64,000 nt of DNA from Hasllibacter sp. MH4015. GTDB taxonomy: Bacteria; Pseudomonadota; Alphaproteobacteria; Rhodobacterales; Rhodobacteraceae. Position 1 is the stretch's first letter. Every line of letters begins with the position of its first letter. The notes beneath the pieces were generated by a model. That model saw only the letters and a program-made list of their open reading frames with translations, made no database searches and was not told the origin of the DNA. This document shows positions 18,719 through 45,929 of this stretch, piece by piece. The stretch spans positions 1,733,875 to 1,797,874 of the forward strand of contig NZ_JAHTBK010000001.1 of the NCBI RefSeq assembly GCF_020177575.1, read 5' to 3'. The position numbers and the translations under genes are program-made.

Positions 18719-18865
18719 CCCCGGTTTGCACGCCCGTGAACCGGCGCGTTAACCTTTGATTTCTTGCACCAATCCCCCCGGGGCATTACCGTCCGCGCCA
18801 TCGGACCGCGCGTGGCAGGACCAATGCCGACGCGCCGCTCCACTGACCCGTGCGAGGGGATGATT

Positions 18866-21800
18866 ATGGAAGATATACCGGCCCAGGACGGGACCGAAAC
18901 GCTGTTCTTCGTGGGGATCGGCGCCTCCGCCGGCGGACTGGAGGCCGCGTCCTCCCTTGTCCAGAACCTGCCGACCGACGCCAATGCCGTCAATATCCTC
19001 GCGCAGCACATGTCGCCCACCCACAAGAGCCTTCTGACCTCCCTGATTGCGCGGGAAACGCCGCTTCCGGTGGAAGAACTGACGGACAAGACGAAACCGG
19101 TCCGCAACACGATCTTCATCACACCCCCCAATTCCGACGTCATCCTGGAGGATGGATTGCTGCGGCTGGTGGAGCCATCGGGCCATCCCGCCACACCCAA
19201 ACCGTCCGCCGACCGGCTGTTCAAATCCTTGGCCGCGGAACAGGGGGAATATTGCGTGGGGATCGTGCTGTCGGGGACCGGCAGCGACGGAAGCTACGGC
19301 GTCCAAGCGATCCGCGAGGCCGGGGGGATCACCATCGCGGAGGATGCGGCGACGGCAAAATACGACGGTATGCCGGCCTCCGCCGCGGAGACGGGGTGCA
19401 TCGACCTCACGCTTTCGCCCGAGCAGATCGGGCAACACCTGGAAAAGATCCTCGCGCGACCGCGGGATTTCGGCCAGCTGCGCCACCTGAACGAAAAGCC
19501 GACCAAACTGTCGAACCTGTTTCAGATCATCCTGGCGCGCACCGGGGTCGATTTCCGAGATTACAAGGACAACACCGTGACGCGGCGTATCAACCGCCGG
19601 ATGGCCGCGCTCGATATCGAGGATTACGACGATTACGTCACCCATTGCCGGTCCTCCGCCGACGAGGTGGACGCGCTGTTTCGCGACCTGCTGATCTCCG
19701 TCACGCGCTTCTTCCGCGATCGCAACCAGTTCGAACAGCTGCGCCTGCAATTCGACCGCATGGTCAAGGGGCGCGATACCAACCAAATGCGCCTTTGGGT
19801 GGCGGGATGCGCGACGGGGGAGGAGGTCTATTCCGTCGCGATCCTGCTGGCAGAGGCGATGGGCGGGCTTGACCAGCTCAGCAAGTCGCGGGTGCAAATT
19901 TTCGCCACCGATATCGACGACCGCGCCATGGAAGTCGCGCGGCGCGGCACCTATCCGATCACGGCGGCCTCCGACATCCCATCGGCCTATCTGGACAAGT
20001 ATTTCACCGTCCGCGGCGATCACATCGCCGTCGCCCCGGAATTGCGGGCCGTGACGCTCTTTTCGGTCCACAACATGTTCCAGGACCCGCCGTTCCTGAA
20101 CCTCGACTTCGTTTCGCTGCGCAATGTCCTGATTTATTTCAACACGGCGCTGCAAAACCGGGTGCTGCACCGCATCCACTACGCGCTCAACCCCAACGGA
20201 CTTCTGTTCATCGGCACGTCGGAATCCGTCGGAAACATGGAAAGCCTGTTTGAAAGCCGGTCAGGCACCGACAAGATATATGCCAAGCGCCGCATGGGCA
20301 TGTCCAACGTGATCCGCCCCCAGATCACGACCCACGGGTCCGGGCGCTGGGGCGGGCACGGCAATCCGCGCCGTGCGGAAGAGGTGCAGACGCCGTCGGC
20401 CGAACGGGTGGACGATCTGCAATTTTCCGCGCTGGCCCGTGCGGTCGCCCCCAACGGCTTCATCCTGACCCGGGGCGGAGAGATCGTGCGTGTCTTCGGC
20501 GACATCTCCTCCTTCACGCAACTGACCGAGAACGCGCCACTCTGGGTGAGCATCCCCAACCTGCGCTCACCGCTGCGCGACGAGATCACGGGGCTTTTCA
20601 CGACCGCGCTCAAGACGAAGAAGCGCCGCACGGGACGGTGGCATGACATGACGGGGCCGGACTTCGATCAGGCCCGTTCCGTCTGCTATCCGGTGGCCGC
20701 GCCCGACAAGGGCGAAGATCACGTGCTCGTCGCGCTGGAGACCCGGGTGAAGGAGAAGCCGACCGAGGCGTTGGAAACCATGAGCGAGGGGGATCGCAAC
20801 GCCTATATCCGCCAGATGGAGCTTGAGGTTGCCCAGACGCGGGAAGCTCTGCAACAGACGGTGGAGGAGCTTCAGACCTCCAACGAGGAGCTGCAATCCA
20901 TCAACGAAGAGATGCAGTCGACGAATGAGGAACTTCAGGCCACGAATGAGGAGCTGGAGACCTCGAACGAGGAACTGCAATCGACGAATGAGGAACTGAT
21001 AACCGTCAACGAGGAATTGCAGGTCAATTCCATGGAACTTCAGCGGGTATCGGCGGAATTGTCGGCGACGCTCGATTCCGTACCCTTCCCGGTTCTCGTC
21101 ATCGACCCGTCCCTGACCGTGCGCCGCGCGTCCAATGCCGCCCTTTCGGCCTTCCGGATCGGCGATCTGCCCGGCGCGGGCCTGCACCTGTCGGCCTGCA
21201 AGCTGCCCGAACGGATCGCCTCTCTTCCGCAATTGTGCAACGAGGTTTTCCGCTTTCGCGATGTCCGCACGATGACGGTCAGTGTCGGCGACAAGATCCA
21301 CCGCCTGTCCGTCGCGCCCTTCCAGAACCAGGTCCACGATGTCACCGGCGTTGTCGTCACGATGGTGGAGGATTTCTCCTCCTCCGAAGCGATGGATTTC
21401 CTGCAACGGTTCGGCAATGTGGGCCATTGGCAGATCGACCTGAACACGGAGAAACTGTTCTGGTCCGACGAGGTTTTCCGCATCCATGGCATCGACCCCT
21501 CCGTCGGGGCGCCCGACATGGAGGGCGGGGTCGAATTCTACCACCCCGACGACCGACCCAAGGTTATCGAGGCGGTCCAGAAATGTGTTGATACCGGCGA
21601 GCCGTTCCGCTTCACCCTGAGGCTCGACCGCGCCGACGGCCGCCGGATCATGGTGGAGGCCGTGGGCAAGCGCATCGCCGATGAGGATGGCACGCCCCAG
21701 CGCGTGGTCGGCGTGTTCCGAAACGTGACGGACCTGATGACCACGCAATTGATCCTGCGCCAGATGGAGGAGTTGCAGGACGACCTTGGCCTCGCCTTCT

Positions 21801-22108
21801 ACTCCATCGACATAAAGAACAACCTCCCCTACTGGAGCCCGAGCCTGTTCCGTCTGCTTGGCTATGACCCGCGTCTGAACGTGCCGTCCGTGCAGAACGC
21901 CATCGATATGTTTCACCACGACGATCAGCAGCGCGTGCAGGACATCCTTGACGGGGCGATGGGCTCCGGCGAGGCCTTCACGTTCGAAGCCCGCCTCGTG
22001 CGCCGGGACCGCACCATCGTCCATTGTCGCAGCAAGGGCCAGACAGCGCGCGATGACAACGGCGAAGCGACACATATTTTCGGGAGTTTCCAATTGCTTG
22101 ACGATTGA
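18866..22108 (+). CDS. CheB-CheR-PAS chemotaxis-like fusion protein
   Basis: A protein of about 1080 residues. A CheB methylesterase domain (GIGASAGGLEA with catalytic Ser, HMSPTHKS, LSGTGSDGS) spans about 10-190. A CheR methyltransferase domain (FRDYKDNTVTRRINRR; WVAGCATGEEVYS for SAM binding; SLRNVLIYF) spans about 200-460. A long coiled coil with seven-residue repeats of the EELQSTN type lies near 640-715, then three PAS-like domains to the end. There is no CheB receiver domain and no C-terminal histidine kinase, unlike many relatives. GAGGGG seven bases before ATG 18866 sets the start. It probably modifies or senses a signalling complex; no other chemotaxis gene is nearby. Confidence 0.9.
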   Translation: MEDIPAQDGTETLFFVGIGASAGGLEAASSLVQNLPTDANAVNILAQHMSPTHKSLLTSLIARETPLPVEELTDKTKPVRNTIFITPPNSDVILEDGLLRLVEPSGHPATPKPSADRLFKSLAAEQGEYCVGIVLSGTGSDGSYGVQAIREAGGITIAEDAATAKYDGMPASAAETGCIDLTLSPEQIGQHLEKILARPRDFGQLRHLNEKPTKLSNLFQIILARTGVDFRDYKDNTVTRRINRRMAALDIEDYDDYVTHCRSSADEVDALFRDLLISVTRFFRDRNQFEQLRLQFDRMVKGRDTNQMRLWVAGCATGEEVYSVAILLAEAMGGLDQLSKSRVQIFATDIDDRAMEVARRGTYPITAASDIPSAYLDKYFTVRGDHIAVAPELRAVTLFSVHNMFQDPPFLNLDFVSLRNVLIYFNTALQNRVLHRIHYALNPNGLLFIGTSESVGNMESLFESRSGTDKIYAKRRMGMSNVIRPQITTHGSGRWGGHGNPRRAEEVQTPSAERVDDLQFSALARAVAPNGFILTRGGEIVRVFGDISSFTQLTENAPLWVSIPNLRSPLRDEITGLFTTALKTKKRRTGRWHDMTGPDFDQARSVCYPVAAPDKGEDHVLVALETRVKEKPTEALETMSEGDRNAYIRQMELEVAQTREALQQTVEELQTSNEELQSINEEMQSTNEELQATNEELETSNEELQSTNEELITVNEELQVNSMELQRVSAELSATLDSVPFPVLVIDPSLTVRRASNAALSAFRIGDLPGAGLHLSACKLPERIASLPQLCNEVFRFRDVRTMTVSVGDKIHRLSVAPFQNQVHDVTGVVVTMVEDFSSSEAMDFLQRFGNVGHWQIDLNTEKLFWSDEVFRIHGIDPSVGAPDMEGGVEFYHPDDRPKVIEAVQKCVDTGEPFRFTLRLDRADGRRIMVEAVGKRIADEDGTPQRVVGVFRNVTDLMTTQLILRQMEELQDDLGLAFYSIDIKNNLPYWSPSLFRLLGYDPRLNVPSVQNAIDMFHHDDQQRVQDILDGAMGSGEAFTFEARLVRRDRTIVHCRSKGQTARDDNGEATHIFGSFQLLDD

Positions 22109-23974: not shown

Positions 23975-25951
23975 TCAGACCAGCTCCGCGTCGGTCATGA
24001 TTTCCACAAGCGCGGGGCCATCTACTGCCAGCGCCTCCGCTAGGGCGTGGTCCAGATCTGCGCTTTCGGTGACCTTGGTGCCATGCGCCCCGCACAGCCG
24101 GGCGAAGGCGGCGAAGGATGGATTGACGAGGGACGTTTCCCACACCGGCCATTCCCCCGCGCGCTGCTCCTTCGAGATCTTGCCAAGCTCATGGTTGTGC
24201 AGAAGAATATGGGTGATATCCATTCCGTACTTCACCGCCGTCGTCATCTCCATCGCGTATTGGCCGAAGCCGCCGTCGCCGGAGATGGAGATCACCTTGC
24301 GCCCGGCGAATTCCGCGAAATCCTGCGTCGCCGACCACGCGCCAAGGGCGGCGGGCAGGGAAAACCCAATGGAGCCGAGATAGCCCGACATCATCACGCG
24401 CTGCCCCTTCGTTTCGAAATAGCGGCCGAAGGAATAGGTGTTGTTGCCCACGTCCACACAGATCAGCGCATCTTCCGGGGCCAGCCGGGACAGGGCATCG
24501 AAGATGGCGACGGAATGGATACCGTTCGCGCCTTCCTCCCTCAGGCGGTTGGCCTTTTCCGTGCGCCACATGCTCCATCGCTCCGCTAAATCCGTGATCT
24601 GGTCCTCGGCATCCTCGGGGCGCGCGAGGTTGGGCGCAACGGCTTCGCAGAACGCCCCGATCTCGCCCCAGACGGGCAGCGTGACGGGGTGGAATTTCCC
24701 AAGCTGCATCCGTTCGAAATCCACCTGGATCGTGGGTTTTCCCCGGTCGATCCCGGTGTGGTTGGAGAACGACGCACCCAGCACGATCTGCAGATCGCAT
24801 TCATTCATGAACCAACTGGCAATCGGCGTTCCGGACCGGCCCAGGACCCCCGCCGCGTTGGGATGGCTGTCGGGGATCAGGCCCTTGCCCTTGAAGGTCG
24901 TAACGACCGGCGCGCCAAGCGCCTCTGCCAAGGCGATGATCTGATCGCGCGCATCCCACGCACCGTGACCCATGATGATCATGGGCCGCTTTGCGCCCGC
25001 TATCAGGTCGAGCGCCGCGGCCACATCCGCGTCTGCGGGCTTGACCACCGGCCCGCCCATCCGGCCATCGGGTCCTCCGGCGGGTGCATCGCTTGGCATG
25101 GTCTGCACATCGTCCGGGAAGATCAGGTTCGCCACGTCCCGTTCGATCAGGGCGGTCTTCATGGCCAGCGAGACCAATTCGCTATGGTTGGACGTGGGCA
25201 GAACCGGCTGCGAAAAGCGGCTGACGGCCTGGAACGCGGATTTGAGGTCGATGTCCTGAAATGCGCCCGGCCCGAAAACCTGCGTCTGGACTTGTCCGGT
25301 CAGCGCCAGCACCGGGGCGCGGTCCACCTTGGCGTCCCACATGCCTGTCAGAAGGTTCGTGGCCCCCGGCCCCGCGATGGCAAGACACGCCGCCGGCTTA
25401 CCCGTCAGCTTGCCATAGGCCGACGCCGCGAAGGCCGCCGCCCCTTCGTGCCGTATCCCGATATAGGACATCTCGCCGTCCGCCATGCGCCGCCGGATCG
25501 CGTCGGCAAGGCCGAGGTTGGAATGCCCCACCATCCCGAAGACGCGCTTGATGCCCCAATTGACCATCGTCTCCGCTATGGCGTCGGTGACGGTACGGGT
25601 GTGCTCGGGTTCCGGCTCCAGCCCAACGAAGACCTCTCCATCGCGGACCTCCACGGGATAGGTCTTCTGTCCCGTATCCTCGTGCCCGCCCGGGGGCGCG
25701 CCGGTCAGCGGGTCGAAATCCCAGCCATGCCACGGGCAGCGAATCCAGCATTTGTCATCGACGCCCCGCTCGATCGTACCTTCCCCAAGGGGACCGCCCT
25801 GGTGCGGGCAATGGTTGTCCATGGCGGCGAATTGGCCATCGAAATGCGACAGGCAAAGGTACGTCGTCCGCGCGGTGACGGTCTTCACCCGCCCCTCCGG
25901 CAAGTCGGCGACCTGACCCACGGAAATCCAGTCGAGCGTTTCGTCAGTCAT
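23975..25951 (-). CDS. Rieske-TPP enzyme fusion (pyruvate-oxidase/acetolactate-synthase-like)
   Basis: About 658 residues. An N-terminal Rieske domain (about 1-105) has both ligand pairs, CPHQGGPLGEG and CPWHGWDF. It is fused to a full TPP-dependent enzyme: the activating Glu in IGIRHEGAAAFAASA, central FAD-type domain, and the TPP/Mg motif opening GDGGFGQYAMEM and ending in LLHNHELG, where one Asn of the usual NN is His. The core most resembles PoxB-type oxidative decarboxylases and acetolactate synthases. The Rieske cluster could take electrons from the thiamine intermediate. It is the last gene of the Rieske operon; three ATGs (25960, 25957, 25951) compete, and AGG nine bases upstream favours 25951. 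Substrate unknown. Confidence 0.85.
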   Translation of the reverse strand: MTDETLDWISVGQVADLPEGRVKTVTARTTYLCLSHFDGQFAAMDNHCPHQGGPLGEGTIERGVDDKCWIRCPWHGWDFDPLTGAPPGGHEDTGQKTYPVEVRDGEVFVGLEPEPEHTRTVTDAIAETMVNWGIKRVFGMVGHSNLGLADAIRRRMADGEMSYIGIRHEGAAAFAASAYGKLTGKPAACLAIAGPGATNLLTGMWDAKVDRAPVLALTGQVQTQVFGPGAFQDIDLKSAFQAVSRFSQPVLPTSNHSELVSLAMKTALIERDVANLIFPDDVQTMPSDAPAGGPDGRMGGPVVKPADADVAAALDLIAGAKRPMIIMGHGAWDARDQIIALAEALGAPVVTTFKGKGLIPDSHPNAAGVLGRSGTPIASWFMNECDLQIVLGASFSNHTGIDRGKPTIQVDFERMQLGKFHPVTLPVWGEIGAFCEAVAPNLARPEDAEDQITDLAERWSMWRTEKANRLREEGANGIHSVAIFDALSRLAPEDALICVDVGNNTYSFGRYFETKGQRVMMSGYLGSIGFSLPAALGAWSATQDFAEFAGRKVISISGDGGFGQYAMEMTTAVKYGMDITHILLHNHELGKISKEQRAGEWPVWETSLVNPSFAAFARLCGAHGTKVTESADLDHALAEALAVDGPALVEIMTDAELV

Positions 25952-26225
25952 GGTCATCATCCTTGGGTTGAGGGGTGAGGAGGTCGAAGATCTTCTGCAA
26001 GAGGGTCAGGCTCAGAAACAGGGCGACGACCCAGATTAGAAGCTCGAACGGGGCCGCATCGGTGCCCCTGAGCCAGCGGGCCAGAAGACCGCCCTGCGGT
26101 CGCAAAGCCTCGATCCCGAACAGCCCGTCACGGTCCCACCATCGGAAATTCCAGAAGCGCGAGATGTAGAAGAATACCAGCGCGACAAGGGCGGTCAGTG
26201 CAAGGAACAGAACCCGCCGGATCAT
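25944..26225 (-). CDS. Small two-helix membrane protein of the Rieske operon
   Basis: A 93-residue protein: helix VLFLALTALVALVFFYISRF, a polar loop with paired tryptophans (RFWNFRWWDRDG), helix FELLIWVVALFLSLTLLQ and a charged tail PQPKDDDHD. Its ATG overlaps the previous gene's stop (ATGA) and its stop overlaps the start region of the TPP fusion, so it is tightly coupled. No family recognised; it may anchor the TPP protein to the membrane. Confidence 0.7.
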   Translation of the reverse strand: MIRRVLFLALTALVALVFFYISRFWNFRWWDRDGLFGIEALRPQGGLLARWLRGTDAAPFELLIWVVALFLSLTLLQKIFDLLTPQPKDDDHD

Positions 26226-26986
26226 TGGGCCAGAACCACATTTTCGGTGTCCACCGTGAAGACCAGGATGTCCCCGTGGCGTGCGACCTCGCCCTCCAAC
26301 GTTACGTACAGACCGACATAATCCAGAAGCGCGGGGGGCAGCGTGTCGTCCCCTTCCCCGGCGATCAGGAGAAAGTCCTCCCCCTCCACCGGTTGCGTGG
26401 TCACGAAGACGGGCGGTACGCCGCCCAGAAGACAAAGGTTCGCGCAGGCCCGGTGGGCGATGCCACGCCCGGGATTCATCGCGCCAGCCTCACACTTTCC
26501 GTCACAGATTTCGCCCGTGATCTGCCACCGACCCAGCGGTTCCGGCGTGGGGATGTCGGGGATCACGCTCTGGTCGTCCGCGGCCCGGAAATTGTTTCCG
26601 CCATTGAGTTGCATCATGTCCAGATCGCCCCGTTCGATCAGGATACCGGTGGCCTGCACCAACTGCCCCTCCAACGCCGCGGCGCGGTCCACCGCCCCGT
26701 TCTTGCCCTGCCCCGACAGCATCAGCGTGTGGCCCACCGGGATCGCATCGGTGCCTTGGGTGACGTGCAGGATGGGCGACGGCGTCAGCTCCAGAACGCC
26801 CTGAACGGTCTGGGGGCCGTAGTCGAACCGGAACCGCCCGTCACCGGGATCATCCTGGGTCGACGCGATGGCAAAGCTAAGGAAGGCCGCCCCCGCGATC
26901 AGGATCAAGCAGGCCGCAAGAAAGAACATCCGCAAGCCCGGCGGCACCGGCAGATATCCCACGAAGAACGGATCACGGTCGCTCAT
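26222..26986 (-). CDS. Membrane-anchored Cys-rich protein of the Rieske operon
   Basis: A 254-residue protein with one N-terminal helix (MFFLAACLILIAGAAFLSFA) and a periplasmic beta-rich domain. A segment GEICDGKCEAGAMNPG followed by HRACANLCLLGG gives a Cys-x3-Cys and His-x2-Cys-x3-Cys arrangement that could bind a metal or form disulfides; the tail (VARHGDILVF) is beta-rich. ATGA overlaps at both ends link it to its neighbours. I cannot name the family. Being next to two Rieske proteins, a redox or assembly role is likely but inferred. Confidence 0.7.
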   Translation of the reverse strand: MSDRDPFFVGYLPVPPGLRMFFLAACLILIAGAAFLSFAIASTQDDPGDGRFRFDYGPQTVQGVLELTPSPILHVTQGTDAIPVGHTLMLSGQGKNGAVDRAAALEGQLVQATGILIERGDLDMMQLNGGNNFRAADDQSVIPDIPTPEPLGRWQITGEICDGKCEAGAMNPGRGIAHRACANLCLLGGVPPVFVTTQPVEGEDFLLIAGEGDDTLPPALLDYVGLYVTLEGEVARHGDILVFTVDTENVVLAQ

Positions 26987-28041
26987 GGCATCGCCTCCTG
27001 CTGCGGGACCGGGACGGGATCGGCGGGCGTTCCGGGCGGATTGGCGCGGGGATCGACAAGGACACGTCCGCCATCGACGCGCAGGTTGTAGGTCGGCACC
27101 TTTTCGGTGAACGGCGCGGGGGATCGGCCCGTGCGCACATCGTACTGGAACCCATGCCACGGACAGGTCACGAGGCAATCGAGGATCCGCCCCTCCCCCA
27201 AGGGTCCGTTCTGGTGGGCGCAAGCGTTGGAAATCGCGCTCAATTGTCCTTCGTGCCGGAACACGGCCACCCTGTCGCCCGATGGCAGGATCGCGATCCG
27301 CGCGCGCCCCTCCGCAATCTCGGACGCGGCGCAGACCGCCACCCAATCCACGCCATCGGCTACCGGGTCGCGCCCGCGCTCCTTCATGGCAGCGGCAAGG
27401 TGCAGGGCAACGACCACCAAGGCACCGGCGCTGAATATCAGCGCCATTGTGTCATTGTCCCGCGATTGGAACGCACCCAGCGCGACGTGGCCTACAACCG
27501 CCGCATAGGCCGGGTAGATCAGGAAATGCACCGCCTTCCACACCGGCGCGGTGAGGAATTTCAGCCAGAAATCATGGCTTGTCGCCGCAAGGATCAAGAG
27601 GCAGATCAGGGCGAATATCCCCAACGCCTCGAACGGGAAGCCAAGGATCTGGGCATAACTCGTGTTGGCGAACAGCACCGTTTCCCACCGGCTTGCGCCC
27701 TGGAAGAACGCAAAATACCAACCCAGGACGAAATAGGCGTGGGTCAGCGCCACCGCCGCCGTCATCACGCCAAAATGGCGCCGATTGTAGAGCAGGCCGA
27801 GGAAGCGTGCGTCCAGCCGTGCGAGCGGACCGATGCACAAGATGATGGTCAGCATCACGAAGGCGCAGGCCCCGAAGGCGCGGGCGTTGCGGATCGGCGG
27901 ATTGATCGGGCGTTCGTGGTTCAGCGCGTCCGGCGCGACGTAGAGGAAGATCCACAGGAACACGACAATGCCCACCATGAGCGCCGCGTCATATCCCCAT
28001 TTCGCACGGTTCCATTGGACGGGGACGTATTTGACGCTCAC
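26983..28041 (-). CDS. Ferric-reductase-like membrane protein with C-terminal Rieske domain
   Basis: A 352-residue protein. About six helices span residues 15-220, with histidines suited to haem b (LTHAYFVLGW, KAVHFLIYPAY, VVGHVALG), as in ferric-reductase-like or YedZ-type domains. A Rieske domain follows at about 240-335 with CAHQNGPLGEG and CPWHGFQYD, both ligand pairs intact. It could link quinones or haem to the soluble partners of the operon. ATGA overlaps join it to genes on both sides. The membrane orientation of the Rieske domain is probably cytoplasmic, judging from the missing signal sequence. Confidence 0.8.
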   Translation of the reverse strand: MSVKYVPVQWNRAKWGYDAALMVGIVVFLWIFLYVAPDALNHERPINPPIRNARAFGACAFVMLTIILCIGPLARLDARFLGLLYNRRHFGVMTAAVALTHAYFVLGWYFAFFQGASRWETVLFANTSYAQILGFPFEALGIFALICLLILAATSHDFWLKFLTAPVWKAVHFLIYPAYAAVVGHVALGAFQSRDNDTMALIFSAGALVVVALHLAAAMKERGRDPVADGVDWVAVCAASEIAEGRARIAILPSGDRVAVFRHEGQLSAISNACAHQNGPLGEGRILDCLVTCPWHGFQYDVRTGRSPAPFTEKVPTYNLRVDGGRVLVDPRANPPGTPADPVPVPQQEAMP

Positions 28042-28415
28042 GGCTCAGCCCCCTGCGGCGCGTCAAGGCGCACGGGCACTGCGTCTGCGGGCCAAGTCTG
28101 GCGGATGGTGAAGCTGACGGCCAGGGTCAGCGCAATTACCAGACCCAACAACAGGGCCGCAACGCCGTGGGCGCGGCGCGGTGGGCTGTGCCGCGCTTCC
28201 GCATGGGCCATCCCCGTCTCCTCCCGCCACCAGCGCCACAGGACCAGCGGCCAGATCAGAAGGATCGCGGGGATCAGCAGGGGGCGAAAGGCGTATGCGC
28301 CGCGTGCGTCCTCATCAATCCGGTCCATGCCGATTGTGAGGAACAGCGCGGCCACAATTCCGCCGATCATGGCATAGGCCTGCACCAGCCAGATCAGCGT
28401 CGCCGCCACGCTCAT
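28038..28415 (-). CDS. Three-helix membrane protein of the Rieske operon
   Basis: A 125-residue protein with helices AATLIWLVQAYAMIGGIVAA (reaching FLTIGMDRID), LLIPAILLIWPLVLWRWW and AALLLGLVIALTLAVSFTI. The motif FLTIGMDRID followed by AYAFRPLLIP recurs, from memory, in small subunits beside Rieske and dehydrogenase proteins, but I cannot assign a family with certainty. Overlaps of ATGA at both ends show strict translational coupling. Confidence 0.7.
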   Translation of the reverse strand: MSVAATLIWLVQAYAMIGGIVAALFLTIGMDRIDEDARGAYAFRPLLIPAILLIWPLVLWRWWREETGMAHAEARHSPPRRAHGVAALLLGLVIALTLAVSFTIRQTWPADAVPVRLDAPQGAEP

Positions 28416-30022
28416 GCTGCGCCGCCATAGGCGACACCGGACAGGTCGGCCATCTCGCGCTTCCACGTGGTCAGATCGCCCGCGTTGAATCCGCTCAGAT
28501 GGTCATGGCCGCAGGCCCGCGCCATCACCTGCATCAGGGAAACGGAGGCGTCGAAGAAATTCGCCAGACGGTCCGCCGATTTCTCCACCACGATGCGACT
28601 GGCAAGGCTCGGGCGCTGGGTCGCGATGCCCACGGGGCAATTGTTGGTGTGGCAGGCGCGCATGGCGATGCAACCGATCGCCTGCATGGCGGAATTCGAT
28701 ACCGCGACCGCGTCCGCCCCCAATGCCATCGCCTTGATAAAATCCGCCGGCTTGCGCAGGCCCCCGGTGATGACGAGGCTGACATCGCGCCGCCCCAGCG
28801 TGTCGAGGTGCCGCCGCGCCCTGGCCAGGGCCGGGATCGTCGGGACGGAGATGTTGTCGCGAAACAGGACCGGCGCCGCACCCGTGCCGCCCCCGCGCCC
28901 GTCGAGGATGATGTAATCCACCCCGACCTCCAGGGCTGCGTCGATATCCTTCTCGATATGTTGCGCGCTCAGCTTGTAGCCGATGGGTATGCCGCCGGTC
29001 CGGTCGCGCACCTCCTCGGCGAAGGTCCGGATCTGCGCCGGTTCGGTCCATTCCGGAAAGCGCGCGGGCGAGATTGCGTCGTGCCCGGCCTCGATCCCGC
29101 GCACCTCGGCGATCTTGTCCTTGTTCTTCGCGCCCGGCAAATGGCCGCCGGTGCCGGTCTTGGCCCCTTGCCCGCCCTTGAAATGGAAGGCCTGCACGTC
29201 CGACAACTTGTCCCAATCAAACCCGAAGCGGGCGGAGGCGAGTTCATAGAAATAGCGCGAATTCGCGGCCTGCTCCTCCGGCAACATGCCGCCTTCGCCC
29301 GAACAGATGCCCGTCCCCGCCCGTTCGGCCCCCAGCGCCAGCGCGATCTTCGCGGGCTCCGACAGCGCCCCGAACGACATGTCGGAGACGAATAGCGGGA
29401 TCTTCAGGCGCAGCGGTTTTCGGGCATTCGGCCCGATCACCACCTCCGTACCAACCGGATGGTTGTCCAGAAGGGGCGGCCTGTGCAATTGCGCCGTCAG
29501 GATCTGGATGTCATCCCATGTCGGCAGATCGTCGCGCGGCACACCCATGGAATCGAGCACGCCGTGATGGCCGACTTGCGACAGGCCCTCTCTCGCGTAT
29601 CGCTGGATCAGGCCGTTATGGGGCTCTTCCGGCGTTCCGTGGGACGTGTCGGCGTAAAGGCCCAGATAGGCATCGCGGTCGAAGGGTTGCGGATTGTCCC
29701 GGGCCCAGGCCGCGATTTGGTCCTCATCAACCAGCACCTCATCGCCGTCGGTCCATGCGCCGAATTTCGGAAGTTTCTCCTCGTTGGCGTATTCCGACAC
29801 CCCGGTATCAAGGCGGTAATCCCAATCATGCACCCCGCAGATCAGGTTCTTGCCGCGCACGAAACCGTCGGACATCAGCGCGCCGCGGTGCAGGCACCGT
29901 CCATAGAAGACGGAGATTTCGTCGTCGAAGCGCACCACAACCAGATCGACATCCGCGACAAGCGCGTATTGCGGCGTCCGGTCCGGCAAAGTGCTGAGCG
30001 TCGCCACCTTTATGGGTGTCAT
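28412..30022 (-). CDS. Rieske-FMN glutamate-synthase-like fusion
   Basis: A 536-residue protein and the first gene of the operon. The N-terminal Rieske domain (about 1-105) has CLHRGALMSDG and CGVHDWDYRLD, which supply the two Cys-His pairs. The rest is an FMN-binding glutamate-synthase central-type TIM barrel: MSFGALSEPAKIALALGAE, GICSGEGGMLPEEQ, KGGQGAKTGTGGHLPG, DGRGGGTGAAP, and the [3Fe-4S]-type cysteines in ACHTNNCPVGIATQ. There is no glutaminase domain, so it is not a complete glutamate synthase. It may use another amino-donor or 2-oxo substrate. The ATG at 30022 is followed directly by Rieske-like sequence. Confidence 0.85.
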   Translation of the reverse strand: MTPIKVATLSTLPDRTPQYALVADVDLVVVRFDDEISVFYGRCLHRGALMSDGFVRGKNLICGVHDWDYRLDTGVSEYANEEKLPKFGAWTDGDEVLVDEDQIAAWARDNPQPFDRDAYLGLYADTSHGTPEEPHNGLIQRYAREGLSQVGHHGVLDSMGVPRDDLPTWDDIQILTAQLHRPPLLDNHPVGTEVVIGPNARKPLRLKIPLFVSDMSFGALSEPAKIALALGAERAGTGICSGEGGMLPEEQAANSRYFYELASARFGFDWDKLSDVQAFHFKGGQGAKTGTGGHLPGAKNKDKIAEVRGIEAGHDAISPARFPEWTEPAQIRTFAEEVRDRTGGIPIGYKLSAQHIEKDIDAALEVGVDYIILDGRGGGTGAAPVLFRDNISVPTIPALARARRHLDTLGRRDVSLVITGGLRKPADFIKAMALGADAVAVSNSAMQAIGCIAMRACHTNNCPVGIATQRPSLASRIVVEKSADRLANFFDASVSLMQVMARACGHDHLSGFNAGDLTTWKREMADLSGVAYGGAA

Positions 30023-33666: not shown

Positions 33667-34132
33667 GCCAATCTGTGACCCCGCGCACTAACTGCACGCG
33701 GGGCCGCTCTGGTGGACGGTACTGACAAGACGGTGGCACCAGCAGCGGAAGGCGTACCACGGGGCGGAACCCCACGCCAAGGGCAGTCCGAAAGGCCGAA
33801 GCCCGGTTCCCGGCACGCGATCCAGTGTCGAAAGTAGCGGCCAACTCCGAAGCACGGATCGTGTGACTTCGGGGGCCCTGTAGCGGCATCCTGGCTCCAA
33901 CGAGCAAGTGCAAGATGAAAGGGCACGGGAACGACAGCCTAAGGCGCAAGCCAAGGGCTTGTCGTCCTATGCCTTCACAGCAAGCCTTCACCAAGGAGCA
34001 AACACTGGCACAACGTTAACCAAGTGCTCACAGGCACCACGTCAGCTACTTAGTACTAGGGATTGCCCTGCGCTTAAGTTGATCGCGCCCAGCGCCCATC
34101 CTATACCGAAAAAAAATTGGGACGATTTGCGC
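33667..34132. other. Gene-free structured stretch before hsdM
   Basis: 466 bases without a supported gene. A perfect hairpin CCCCGCG ... CGCGGGG (33679-33703) starts 13 bases after the AlpA stop; it lacks a T run. The next 250 bases are GC-rich with many short complementary segments and overlapping open frames on the minus strand that look non-coding. The last 100 bases turn AT-rich (GTTAACC, TTAGTACTAGG) and should hold the hsd promoter. Confidence 0.5.
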
Positions 34133-35584
34133 ATGTTTGAGAACGCCTTCAACAACATCGACAAGGAAATGCGCAACGAACAGGGTTTGGCGTCCGAACT
34201 CGACTACGCTGAACAGACATCGTGGATTTTGTTTCTGAAATACCTCGATGACCTCGAGCAAACCCGTCAGGACGAAGCGGAACTGGAAGGCCGTGATTAC
34301 ACGCCCATCCTTTCTGCAGATTATCGTTGGCAGGTATGGGCCGCGCCCAAAGACGCAAACGGCAAACCGGACCATGACAGCGCCCTGACTGGCGACGATT
34401 TGATCGAATACGTCAATGGAACCCTGTTCCCTTACCTCAAGGCGTTCAGGGCATCCGCGCCCAGCGCTGACACTCTCGAATACAAGATCGGTGAGATCTT
34501 CTCGGAGATCATCAACAAATTCCGTTCCGGCTACACGCTGCGCGATGTTCTGGAGATTGTGGACAGCCTGTCCTTCAACACCCAAGCGCAAAAGCACGAA
34601 TTGTCTGACCTCTATGAAAGCCGCATCAAGCGGATGGGCAATGCAGGGCGCAACGGCGGGGAATACTACACCCCTCGCCCGCTTATCCGCGCCATGATCA
34701 AAGTGGTCGGCCCCAAGATAGGAGAAACCATCTACGACGGCGCTGTGGGCTCTGCTGGCTTCCTGTGTGAAGCCTACGACTACCTGAACCACCCCGACAT
34801 CACCGCCGCCGATTTTCGCACCCTGCAGGAACGCACCTTCTACGGGCAGGAAAAGAAATCCCTCGCCTACATCATCGGTATCATGAACATGATCCTGCAC
34901 GGGATCGACACGCCCAACCTGATCCACGCCAACACGCTGAATGAGAACGTGATGGATATTCAGGAAAAGGACCGTCACGACGTGATCCTTGCTAACCCGC
35001 CCTTTGGCGGCGGCGAGCGCAAAGAGGTCCAGCAGAACTTCCCCATCAAGTCAGGGGAAACCGCCTATCTGTTCATGCAGCACTTCATCCGCAAGTTAAA
35101 GGCGGGTGGACGCGCGGCAGTGGTCATTAAGAACACGTTTCTGAGCAACACCGACAACGCGAGTGTTGAGCTGCGCCGTGAACTGATGGCGACCTGCAAA
35201 CTGCACACGATCCTTGATTGCCCGCAGGGGACCTTTCAGGGCGCGGGTGTGAAAACCGTTGTCCTATTCTTTGAGAAAGGCAGCGCCACGCGGAACATTT
35301 GGTACTACCAGCTTGATCCGGGCCGCAGCCTTGGCAAGACGAACCCGCTGATTGACGCGGACCTTGCGGATTTTCTGGGCCAACAGGCCAGCTTTGCCGA
35401 CAGCCTCCAAAGCTGGACCATTGCGCGGGACGATCTGGACGAGGACAACTGTGACCTCTCCGTCAAAAACCCCAACGCCCCAGAGGCCGCCCCCCTGCGC
35501 AGCCCGGAAGAGATCATCGCGGATATGCTGGAACGGGATTCGGAAACGGCGAAAATCTTGACGGATATTCGGGGGATGTTGTGA
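34133..35584 (+). CDS. hsdM: Type I restriction-modification methyltransferase subunit
   Basis: A 483-residue HsdM. The N-terminal helical domain (FENAFNNIDKEMRNEQGLAS) is followed by the N6-adenine methyltransferase: SAM-binding GAVGSAGFLCEAY near residue 205 and the catalytic NPPFGG near residue 288. With HsdS it methylates adenines in the recognition site. The true start is ATG 34133; the open frame extends 75 codons upstream but contains no family sequence. GTG of hsdS overlaps its stop. Confidence 0.94.
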   Translation: MFENAFNNIDKEMRNEQGLASELDYAEQTSWILFLKYLDDLEQTRQDEAELEGRDYTPILSADYRWQVWAAPKDANGKPDHDSALTGDDLIEYVNGTLFPYLKAFRASAPSADTLEYKIGEIFSEIINKFRSGYTLRDVLEIVDSLSFNTQAQKHELSDLYESRIKRMGNAGRNGGEYYTPRPLIRAMIKVVGPKIGETIYDGAVGSAGFLCEAYDYLNHPDITAADFRTLQERTFYGQEKKSLAYIIGIMNMILHGIDTPNLIHANTLNENVMDIQEKDRHDVILANPPFGGGERKEVQQNFPIKSGETAYLFMQHFIRKLKAGGRAAVVIKNTFLSNTDNASVELRRELMATCKLHTILDCPQGTFQGAGVKTVVLFFEKGSATRNIWYYQLDPGRSLGKTNPLIDADLADFLGQQASFADSLQSWTIARDDLDEDNCDLSVKNPNAPEAAPLRSPEEIIADMLERDSETAKILTDIRGML

Positions 35585-45853: not shown

Positions 45854-45929
45854 TGGTGCCCCCACACGGACTCGAACCGCGGACCTACTGATTACAAATC
45901 AGTTGCTCTACCAGCTGAGCTATAGGGGC
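45854..45929 (-). tRNA. tRNA-Thr (anticodon TGT)
   Basis: A 76-base gene with encoded CCA. Acceptor GCCCCTA pairs with TGGGGGC; D-arm GCTC/GAGC; anticodon stem ACTGA/TCAGT around loop TTTGTAA (anticodon TGT); T-loop GGTTCGAGTCC. Its 3' end (45854) faces the integrated elements and is the source of the att copies, so the elements inserted here without breaking the gene. Confidence 0.95.

Follow-up and report, generated by a model that had tools for sequence, protein, structure and literature searches.

A recurrent two-module redox gene set with three Rieske domains in Hasllibacter sp. MH4015

The 64,000-nucleotide stretch of the Hasllibacter sp. MH4015 genome analyzed here (contig NZ_JAHTBK010000001.1, positions 1,733,875 to 1,797,874; hereafter the window) contains a locus of six genes, P1 to P6, three of whose products carry a Rieske [2Fe-2S] domain (Table 1). 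The Rieske family search of the whole genome returned nine matches, including these three. All five gene junctions, which were read directly, overlap, four by 4 bases and one by 8 bases: the overlap is ATGA at P1/P2, P3/P4 and P4/P5, GTGA at P2/P3, and 8 bases long at P5/P6 if P6 starts at ATG 25951. This start is likelier than ATG 25957 and yields a P6 of 658 rather than 660 amino acids; it also matches the aligned, script-chosen starts of four orthologues. A preliminary description of the locus, made from the sequence alone, had proposed an operon of six overlapping genes with three Rieske domains, which the open reading frames, the Pfam matches and the junctions bear out, and its remark that nearly every junction is ATGA is right in substance.

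Table 1. Positions of the six genes, their Rieske domains and related proteins (window coordinates, or locus:coordinates for relatives).
Feature	Position	Strand	Basis
Six-gene locus, P1 to P6	30022 -> 23975	(-)	Open reading frames and domain matches
P1, Rieske [2Fe-2S] + glutamate-synthase-type flavin mononucleotide (FMN)/[3Fe-4S] domain, 536 amino acids	28412..30022	(-)	Rieske PF00355 E 2.8e-11; Glu_synthase PF01645 E 1.7e-88
Rieske domain of P1	29771..30013	(-)	Rieske family search, Pfam
P2, small protein with three predicted membrane helices, 125 amino acids	28038..28415	(-)	Sub-threshold Pfam match only
P3, YedZ/MsrQ-type ferric-reductase membrane domain + C-terminal Rieske, 352 amino acids	26983..28041	(-)	Ferric_reduct PF01794 E 1.9e-9; Rieske E 2e-16
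Rieske domain of P3	27088..27348	(-)	Rieske family search, Pfam
P4, one N-terminal membrane helix + predicted periplasmic beta-rich part, 254 amino acids	26222..26986	(-)	
P5, small protein with two predicted membrane helices, 93 amino acids	25944..26225	(-)	
P6, Rieske + thiamine pyrophosphate (TPP) enzyme of the pyruvate-oxidase/acetolactate-synthase superfamily	23975..25951 (alternative start 25957)	(-)	Rieske E 4.4e-16 + three TPP-enzyme domains
Rieske domain of P6	25688..25930	(-)	Rieske family search, Pfam
CDGSH-type P1 relatives	L054:2999-4585; L055:197-1744; L105:8424-10001; L098:1226-2815; L134:7689-9239		

The Rieske ligands are C43/H45/C62/H65 in P1, C274/H276/C293/H296 in P3 and C50/H52/C74/H77 in P6, so that both Cys-His pairs are present in all three proteins, as the preliminary description had reported. 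In alignments whose rows come from 103 loci, three of them present twice under two identifiers, with gene calls made by a simple script, the pairs are kept in 89/89 rows of P6 and in 60/60 rows of P3, and all four ligands are found in 63 of the 69 rows of P1; the six exceptions comprise a fragment and five CDGSH-motif proteins. Non-functional Rieske ligands in related members, which the preliminary description had named as evidence against itself, were not seen in these alignments.

The best PDB sequence matches of P6 are Escherichia coli PoxB and the pyruvate oxidases (E 1.1e-65; 3.9e-77 with the family profile), which are likewise TPP enzymes with three TPP-enzyme domains, a catalytic Glu and a GDG...N motif. 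The catalytic Glu171 of P6 is found in 89/89 rows, and 83 of the 87 rows long enough to cover these positions have GDG 560-562 and N588; in four haloarchaeal rows (L130-L133) the TPP/Mg motif reads SDG instead of GDG and has D in place of its later N. Compared with PoxB, P6 lacks the C-terminal extension and has an N-terminal Rieske domain: the alignment reaches PoxB residue 528 of 572, and P6 ends at most 5 residues from there. The C-terminal tail of PoxB is its membrane-binding part. The NCBIfam pyruvate oxidase model scores P6 375 against a cut-off of 742, and an ordinary pyruvate oxidase was rejected as an explanation for P6 because the partner parts are missing. With pyruvate oxidases as its closest relatives, P6 would most naturally be read as an enzyme that decarboxylates a 2-oxo acid oxidatively.

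P1 shares the FMN-[3Fe-4S] synthase domain of ferredoxin- and NADPH-dependent glutamate synthases. Its [3Fe-4S] cysteines 451/457/462 are present in 69/69 rows, and it keeps Lys282 and Arg308, which align with Synechocystis Lys966 and Arg992, residues that we take to bind 2-oxoglutarate. Unlike glutamate synthases, P1 has a fused Rieske domain, a shorter stretch past the SGEGG motif and no N-terminal glutaminase domain, none being found by the Pfam scan of P1; with this partner domain missing, an ordinary glutamate synthase was rejected. A closer counterpart is the type 5 CDGSH protein, which, according to PMC3174974 and PMC5859297, consists of tandem CDGSH domains and a C-terminal glutamate synthase FMN domain. 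In both proteins a His-ligated 2Fe-2S domain precedes a closely similar FMN domain (69% over residues 130-534 for a Vibrio plasmid protein), but the type 5 protein has two CDGSH motifs where P1 has one Rieske domain. Five relatives of P1 possess two N-terminal CDGSH motifs instead of the Rieske domain, and those of L054, L055 and L105 directly precede P6. In a tree of 66 P1 FMN domains, the haloarchaeal, the CDGSH-type and the bacterial Rieske-type proteins form three well supported groups; the tree was midpoint-rooted for drawing only and gives no direction to the swap between Rieske and CDGSH domains.

P3 has six helices in its YedZ/MsrQ-type haem domain, and His101, His172, His185 and Arg87/Arg88 are kept in 60/60 rows. 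By our matching of residues, these fit the YedZ/STEAP signature given in PMC3591440, in which His-209 and His-222 are spaced 13 apart, as are His172 and His185 of P3. The NCBIfam MsrQ model matches P3 residues 24-178 (E 5.6e-9) with 35.8 of 130 bits, which is below its cut-off. The predicted structure (predicted local distance difference test score, pLDDT, 80) matches dioxygenase ferredoxins in its Rieske part (25 chains, E <= 0.001) and STEAP1 and NOX5 only weakly (E 0.01), and hydropathy and charge counts predict that the Rieske domain is cytoplasmic. Like MsrQ/YedZ of the MsrPQ system and the ferric reductase domain (FRD) superfamily, P3 has an FRD membrane domain with three kept histidines and arginines before the first of them, and transmembrane electron flow is likely common to P3 and MsrQ/YedZ. 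The locus differs from MsrPQ in the Rieske domain fused to P3 and in the additional proteins P2, P4 and P5; a molybdopterin domain like that of MsrP is not found in the six proteins, the rest of the genome not having been searched for MsrP. PMC3591440 lists, without function, a bacterial FRD architecture (M4) that combines Rieske and FMN domains and may be that of P3, and it names YedZ as the only characterized bacterial FRD member as of 2013. Clusters of MsrQ-like genes with flavinylated partners are described in PMC8238504. A Rieske oxygenase pathway was also considered for the locus and was rejected, as none of the six proteins has the catalytic domain of a non-haem iron oxygenase.

P4 keeps C165, M170, H178, C181 and C185 in 60/60 rows and C161 in 59/60. 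It has no match in Pfam or NCBIfam and no sequence relative in the PDB (best E 0.035); fold comparison gave mostly OB folds, with no hit reaching significance (best E 0.015), and a search of viral contigs with the single protein as query found none. P5 has no Pfam match. Both P2 and P5 were counted in other genomes by score cut-offs that miss diverged copies, such as the P5-like protein of the Roseibium group. In one locus a protein beside P6 (L110:12063-12593) has a P4-type motif (C, H-x2-C-x3-C, GGIP) without a counterpart of C161 and belongs to no Pfam family.

The six genes recur together in other genomes, while their order is shuffled. We inspected 80 P6 loci, the best 80 of 546 relatives from a profile search of genome contigs and hence the closest ones. 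All six genes are found in 19 of them, P1 in 60 (four of these matches, in L054, L055, L098 and L105, being of the CDGSH type) and P3 in 43. Written with the gene numbers, the order of the window occurs in 18 of the 19 complete loci and 6-1-2-3-4-5 in the remaining one; the other arrangements are 1-6 (23 loci, with the two genes 6.6 kb apart in L098, and one further locus in fragments), P6 alone (13), 1-6-2-3-4 (10), 2-3-4-5-6 (5), 4-3-2-1 divergent from 6 (four), 2-3-4-1-6 (three), 2-3-4-6 (one) and 4-3 divergent from 6 (one). In some loci P6 lies close to a contig end; in the 56 where 5 kb or more precede P6 and 4 kb or more follow it, P1 is found in 46, P3 in 35 and both in 30. Ten of these 56 loci lack P1, and three of their genomes hold a Rieske-P1 elsewhere. 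P3 is missing from 21, of which 20 belong to searchable genomes, and ten of those genomes hold it elsewhere. When neighborhoods were instead fetched with P4, the first 14 from the family all contained a P2-P3-P4 core, with P5 in nine, P1 in six and P6 in four. Scattering of the genes in other genomes, which the preliminary description had named as evidence against a joint pathway, is seen in part: the set recurs, but its order is shuffled and only 19 of the 80 loci hold all six genes. Together with the genomes lacking P3 or P1, this arrangement looks like two cooperating modules.

Co-occurrence was evaluated in a family sample of 149 genomes, one per genus, with P4 as the marker of the membrane module; the hypergeometric P-values treat genera as independent. 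Strong matches to P4 were found in 15 genomes (leaving out two further genomes and one second place with weak matches only), to P6 in nine and to Rieske-P1 in 15; in ten additional genomes the match to P1 begins only at about residue 126, which is also true of the CDGSH type. P6 is accompanied by P1 in 9/9 genomes (expected 0.9, p 6e-11; 6e-10 without the Hasllibacter genome itself) and by the membrane module in eight of nine (p 1e-8; 1e-7), while ten of the 15 P1 genomes contain the module (p 7e-9; 5e-8). Outside the P6 genomes the link between P1 and the module is weak (2 shared of 6 and 7, p 0.03). Within the genus of the window, P6 and P3 are present in the same eight of 13 genomes. Among 385 genomes at the class level, P6 is found in 15, Rieske-P1 in 10 and both in eight (expected 0.4; p 3e-11, or 8e-8 by genus), and omission of G885, in which both genes are truncated, leaves 7 shared of 14 and 9 (p 5e-10). 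The searches at the class and phylum levels scored only the top few first-look candidates in each genome. The link between P6 and P1 is strong, although not obligate.

Such a pattern could also arise if the modules merely traveled together as a mobile cassette without acting jointly. Their spread is patchy (9 to 15 of the 149 family genomes, with P4 in 7/398 genomes at the phylum level, one of them in part only), plasmid copies exist, and an integrase-like gene, named by eye, lies 1.5 kb upstream of P1 (31531-32727). The co-occurrence nevertheless holds where the modules stand apart, about 1.2 Mb from each other on one contig in G125 and on different contigs in G001, G029 and G017; the set recurs despite its shuffled order, and the reading frames overlap in the window. 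We therefore regard travel without joint action as very unlikely. Further upstream lies a type I restriction HsdM-like gene (33908-35584, also named by eye), and the integrase-like and HsdM-like genes possibly mark the edge of an island.

The plasmid copies extend well beyond the family. P6 is encoded in four haloarchaeal plasmid records (57.8-59.5% identity over 97-99% of the query) and P1 in three (61.8-63.0% identity over 99%), the P6-P1 distance in three plasmids being 1.4, 4.0, and 16.8 kb. A Mycobacteroides plasmid carries P6 (53%). Matches spanning 80% or more of P3 occur in five plasmid records, all from Rhizobium. In the three Rhizobium plasmids that were inspected, an annotated TPP-binding protein of about 543 residues is encoded nearby on the other strand; in L128, L135 and L136 the P3-P4 module stands behind a short-chain dehydrogenase/reductase (SDR) gene, opposite genes for the TPP-binding protein, OpgC and a coenzyme A transferase.

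Based on these results, we tentatively propose that the locus encodes a single electron-transfer system made up of two modules, a soluble module of P6 and P1 and a membrane module of P3, P4, P2 and P5. Judging from its relatives, P6 would most likely oxidize a 2-oxo acid, pyruvate or a related compound, with decarboxylation, and P1 would be a glutamate-synthase-type FMN/[3Fe-4S] enzyme that forms the second half of the soluble module. The fused Rieske cluster may serve as an electron outlet or inlet, taking the place of the membrane-binding tail of PoxB in P6 and that of the NADPH or ferredoxin partner in P1. The membrane module may consist of P3, with haem b and its Rieske domain on the cytoplasmic face, P4, with a predicted periplasmic Cys/His/Met site, and the helical P2 and P5. 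Cytosolic electrons would move between Rieske clusters until they reach P3, whose haem would relay them to the quinone pool, to P4 or to both, whereas in genomes without P3 the P6-P1 pair would presumably act as a soluble couple. Redox potentials would permit electron flow from a 2-oxo acid through a Rieske cluster to quinone. Gene set, domain content, kept ligands and co-occurrence are observations; we infer cofactor binding, Rieske-to-Rieske transfer, its direction and the substrates. The single membrane-linked redox pathway of the preliminary description thus stands as a unit, on the strength of co-occurrence and kept ligands, but not as one fixed six-gene pathway, given the shuffled order and the genomes that lack P1 or P3.

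Several observations weigh against the two-module proposal. Seven of the 15 class-level P6 genomes (with P6 at 54-65% identity) lack P1, and Rieske-P1 is missing from five of the family's 15 module genomes and from seven of the ten genomes whose loci lack P1. Ten of the 20 searched P6 genomes have no P3 (several of these genomes are incomplete metagenome bins), and P3 is therefore not a universal partner. In three Rhizobium plasmids the inspected stretch has the P3-P4 module and neither P1 nor P6; together with the module genomes that lack P1, they indicate that the membrane module has a role of its own. The neighboring genes also provide no clue to the substrate, since PF00999 alone stands out among the 139 neighbors scanned.

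These neighbors were drawn from 452 proteins encoded at most 2.5 kb from the block across the 80 loci; the nearest 148 were taken, nine were dropped (seven near-identical P5-like proteins and two P6 fragments), and the control consisted of 139 proteins picked at random from 359 encoded at distances above 5 kb. The Na+/H+ exchanger family PF00999 accounts for 26/139 nearest proteins and at most 2/139 distal ones. An exchanger is among the nearest genes in 27/80 loci (one representative confirmed by Pfam). Where a locus contains both genes, the exchanger nearly always directly adjoins P1 in the same orientation (25 of 26 loci). No other family exceeds 4/139, and random distal genes reach 5/139 by chance. 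On a Halorarius plasmid, a sodium:proton antiporter, a potassium channel and two small genes are located between P6 and P1, and on the Mycobacteroides plasmid a cation:proton antiporter is found about 3 kb from P6. Along with the glutamate-synthase residues kept in P1, this association would suit a role in ion or osmotic stress, in which electrons from P6 enable P1 to make glutamate from 2-oxoglutarate and free ammonia as a counter-ion of K+, alongside the often adjacent cation antiporter, and the membrane module drains surplus electrons. However, the window has no antiporter beside the operon (its genome has a copy elsewhere, 79% identical to that of L049), in 53/80 loci the nearest genes include none, a source of ammonia is not encoded, and P3-P4 would be left unexplained, which makes glutamate formation under ion stress an unlikely account of the whole set.

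Given the resemblance of P3 to MsrQ, albeit below the model cut-off, and the Cys/His/Met set of P4, the locus might alternatively serve in oxidant defence as an MsrPQ-like system, with electrons passing from cytosolic enzymes through P3 to P4, which would reduce oxidized periplasmic targets in place of MsrP. An extracytoplasmic function (ECF) sigma factor is encoded in six loci (one confirmed by Pfam), a catalase-peroxidase in two and MsrA in two (both by eye), and chlorite dismutase, peroxiredoxins, pirin or DsbD are annotated on Rhizobium and haloarchaeal plasmids. None of these neighbor links rises above the distal background, though, and the lack of a solved sequence relative or significant fold match for P4 also speaks against oxidant defence, which we consider quite improbable.

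To return to the two-module proposal, a broader version of it may be worth considering, if with some doubt: the otherwise unrelated oxidoreductases P6, P1 and P3 may trade electrons via exchangeable His-ligated 2Fe-2S plugs, Rieske or, in the P1 relatives, CDGSH, and so link the oxidation of 2-oxo acids with amino-nitrogen chemistry, with a haem path across the membrane and with cation antiport, an undescribed wiring of metabolism to the membrane. If true, this would add a Rieske-dependent route from a TPP enzyme to the membrane, provide a testable set of partners for Rieske-fused FRD proteins and for CDGSH/glutamate-synthase fusions, and make Rieske and CDGSH clusters interchangeable on the same enzyme. 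No description of a Rieske-TPP protein or of the six-gene set was found in the literature searched, largely at the level of titles and abstracts, and within that literature the statement of the preliminary description that no pathway of this composition has been described holds. We conclude that this two-module redox gene set is real and recurs across genomes; its domain types are known, and the set itself has no description in the literature searched.

Other genes were observed near P6 and the module. ATPases of ATP-binding cassette (ABC) transporters, considered as a substrate clue, were seen by eye near six of the 80 loci and were rejected as too few and too mixed. Closest to the module in L033 and L035 is a gene whose product resembles an AEC-type permease. 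In nine of the 80 loci (e.g., L057:11971-12810), P6 is followed by a gene for a weakly DUF5996-like protein of some 280 residues (E 1e-4, below cut-off, for the one member scanned). A K+ channel-like membrane protein with a TrkA-C-type tail, recognized by eye, is found near P6 at L058:3411-4097, in six other loci and at L132:15223-16695; the L058 protein has no Pfam match. Within the window, an SDR-like gene (by eye) lies immediately upstream of P1, positions 18764-22108 encode a large fused CheB/CheR/PAS-like protein (named by eye), and the sole tRNA found is at 45854-45929.

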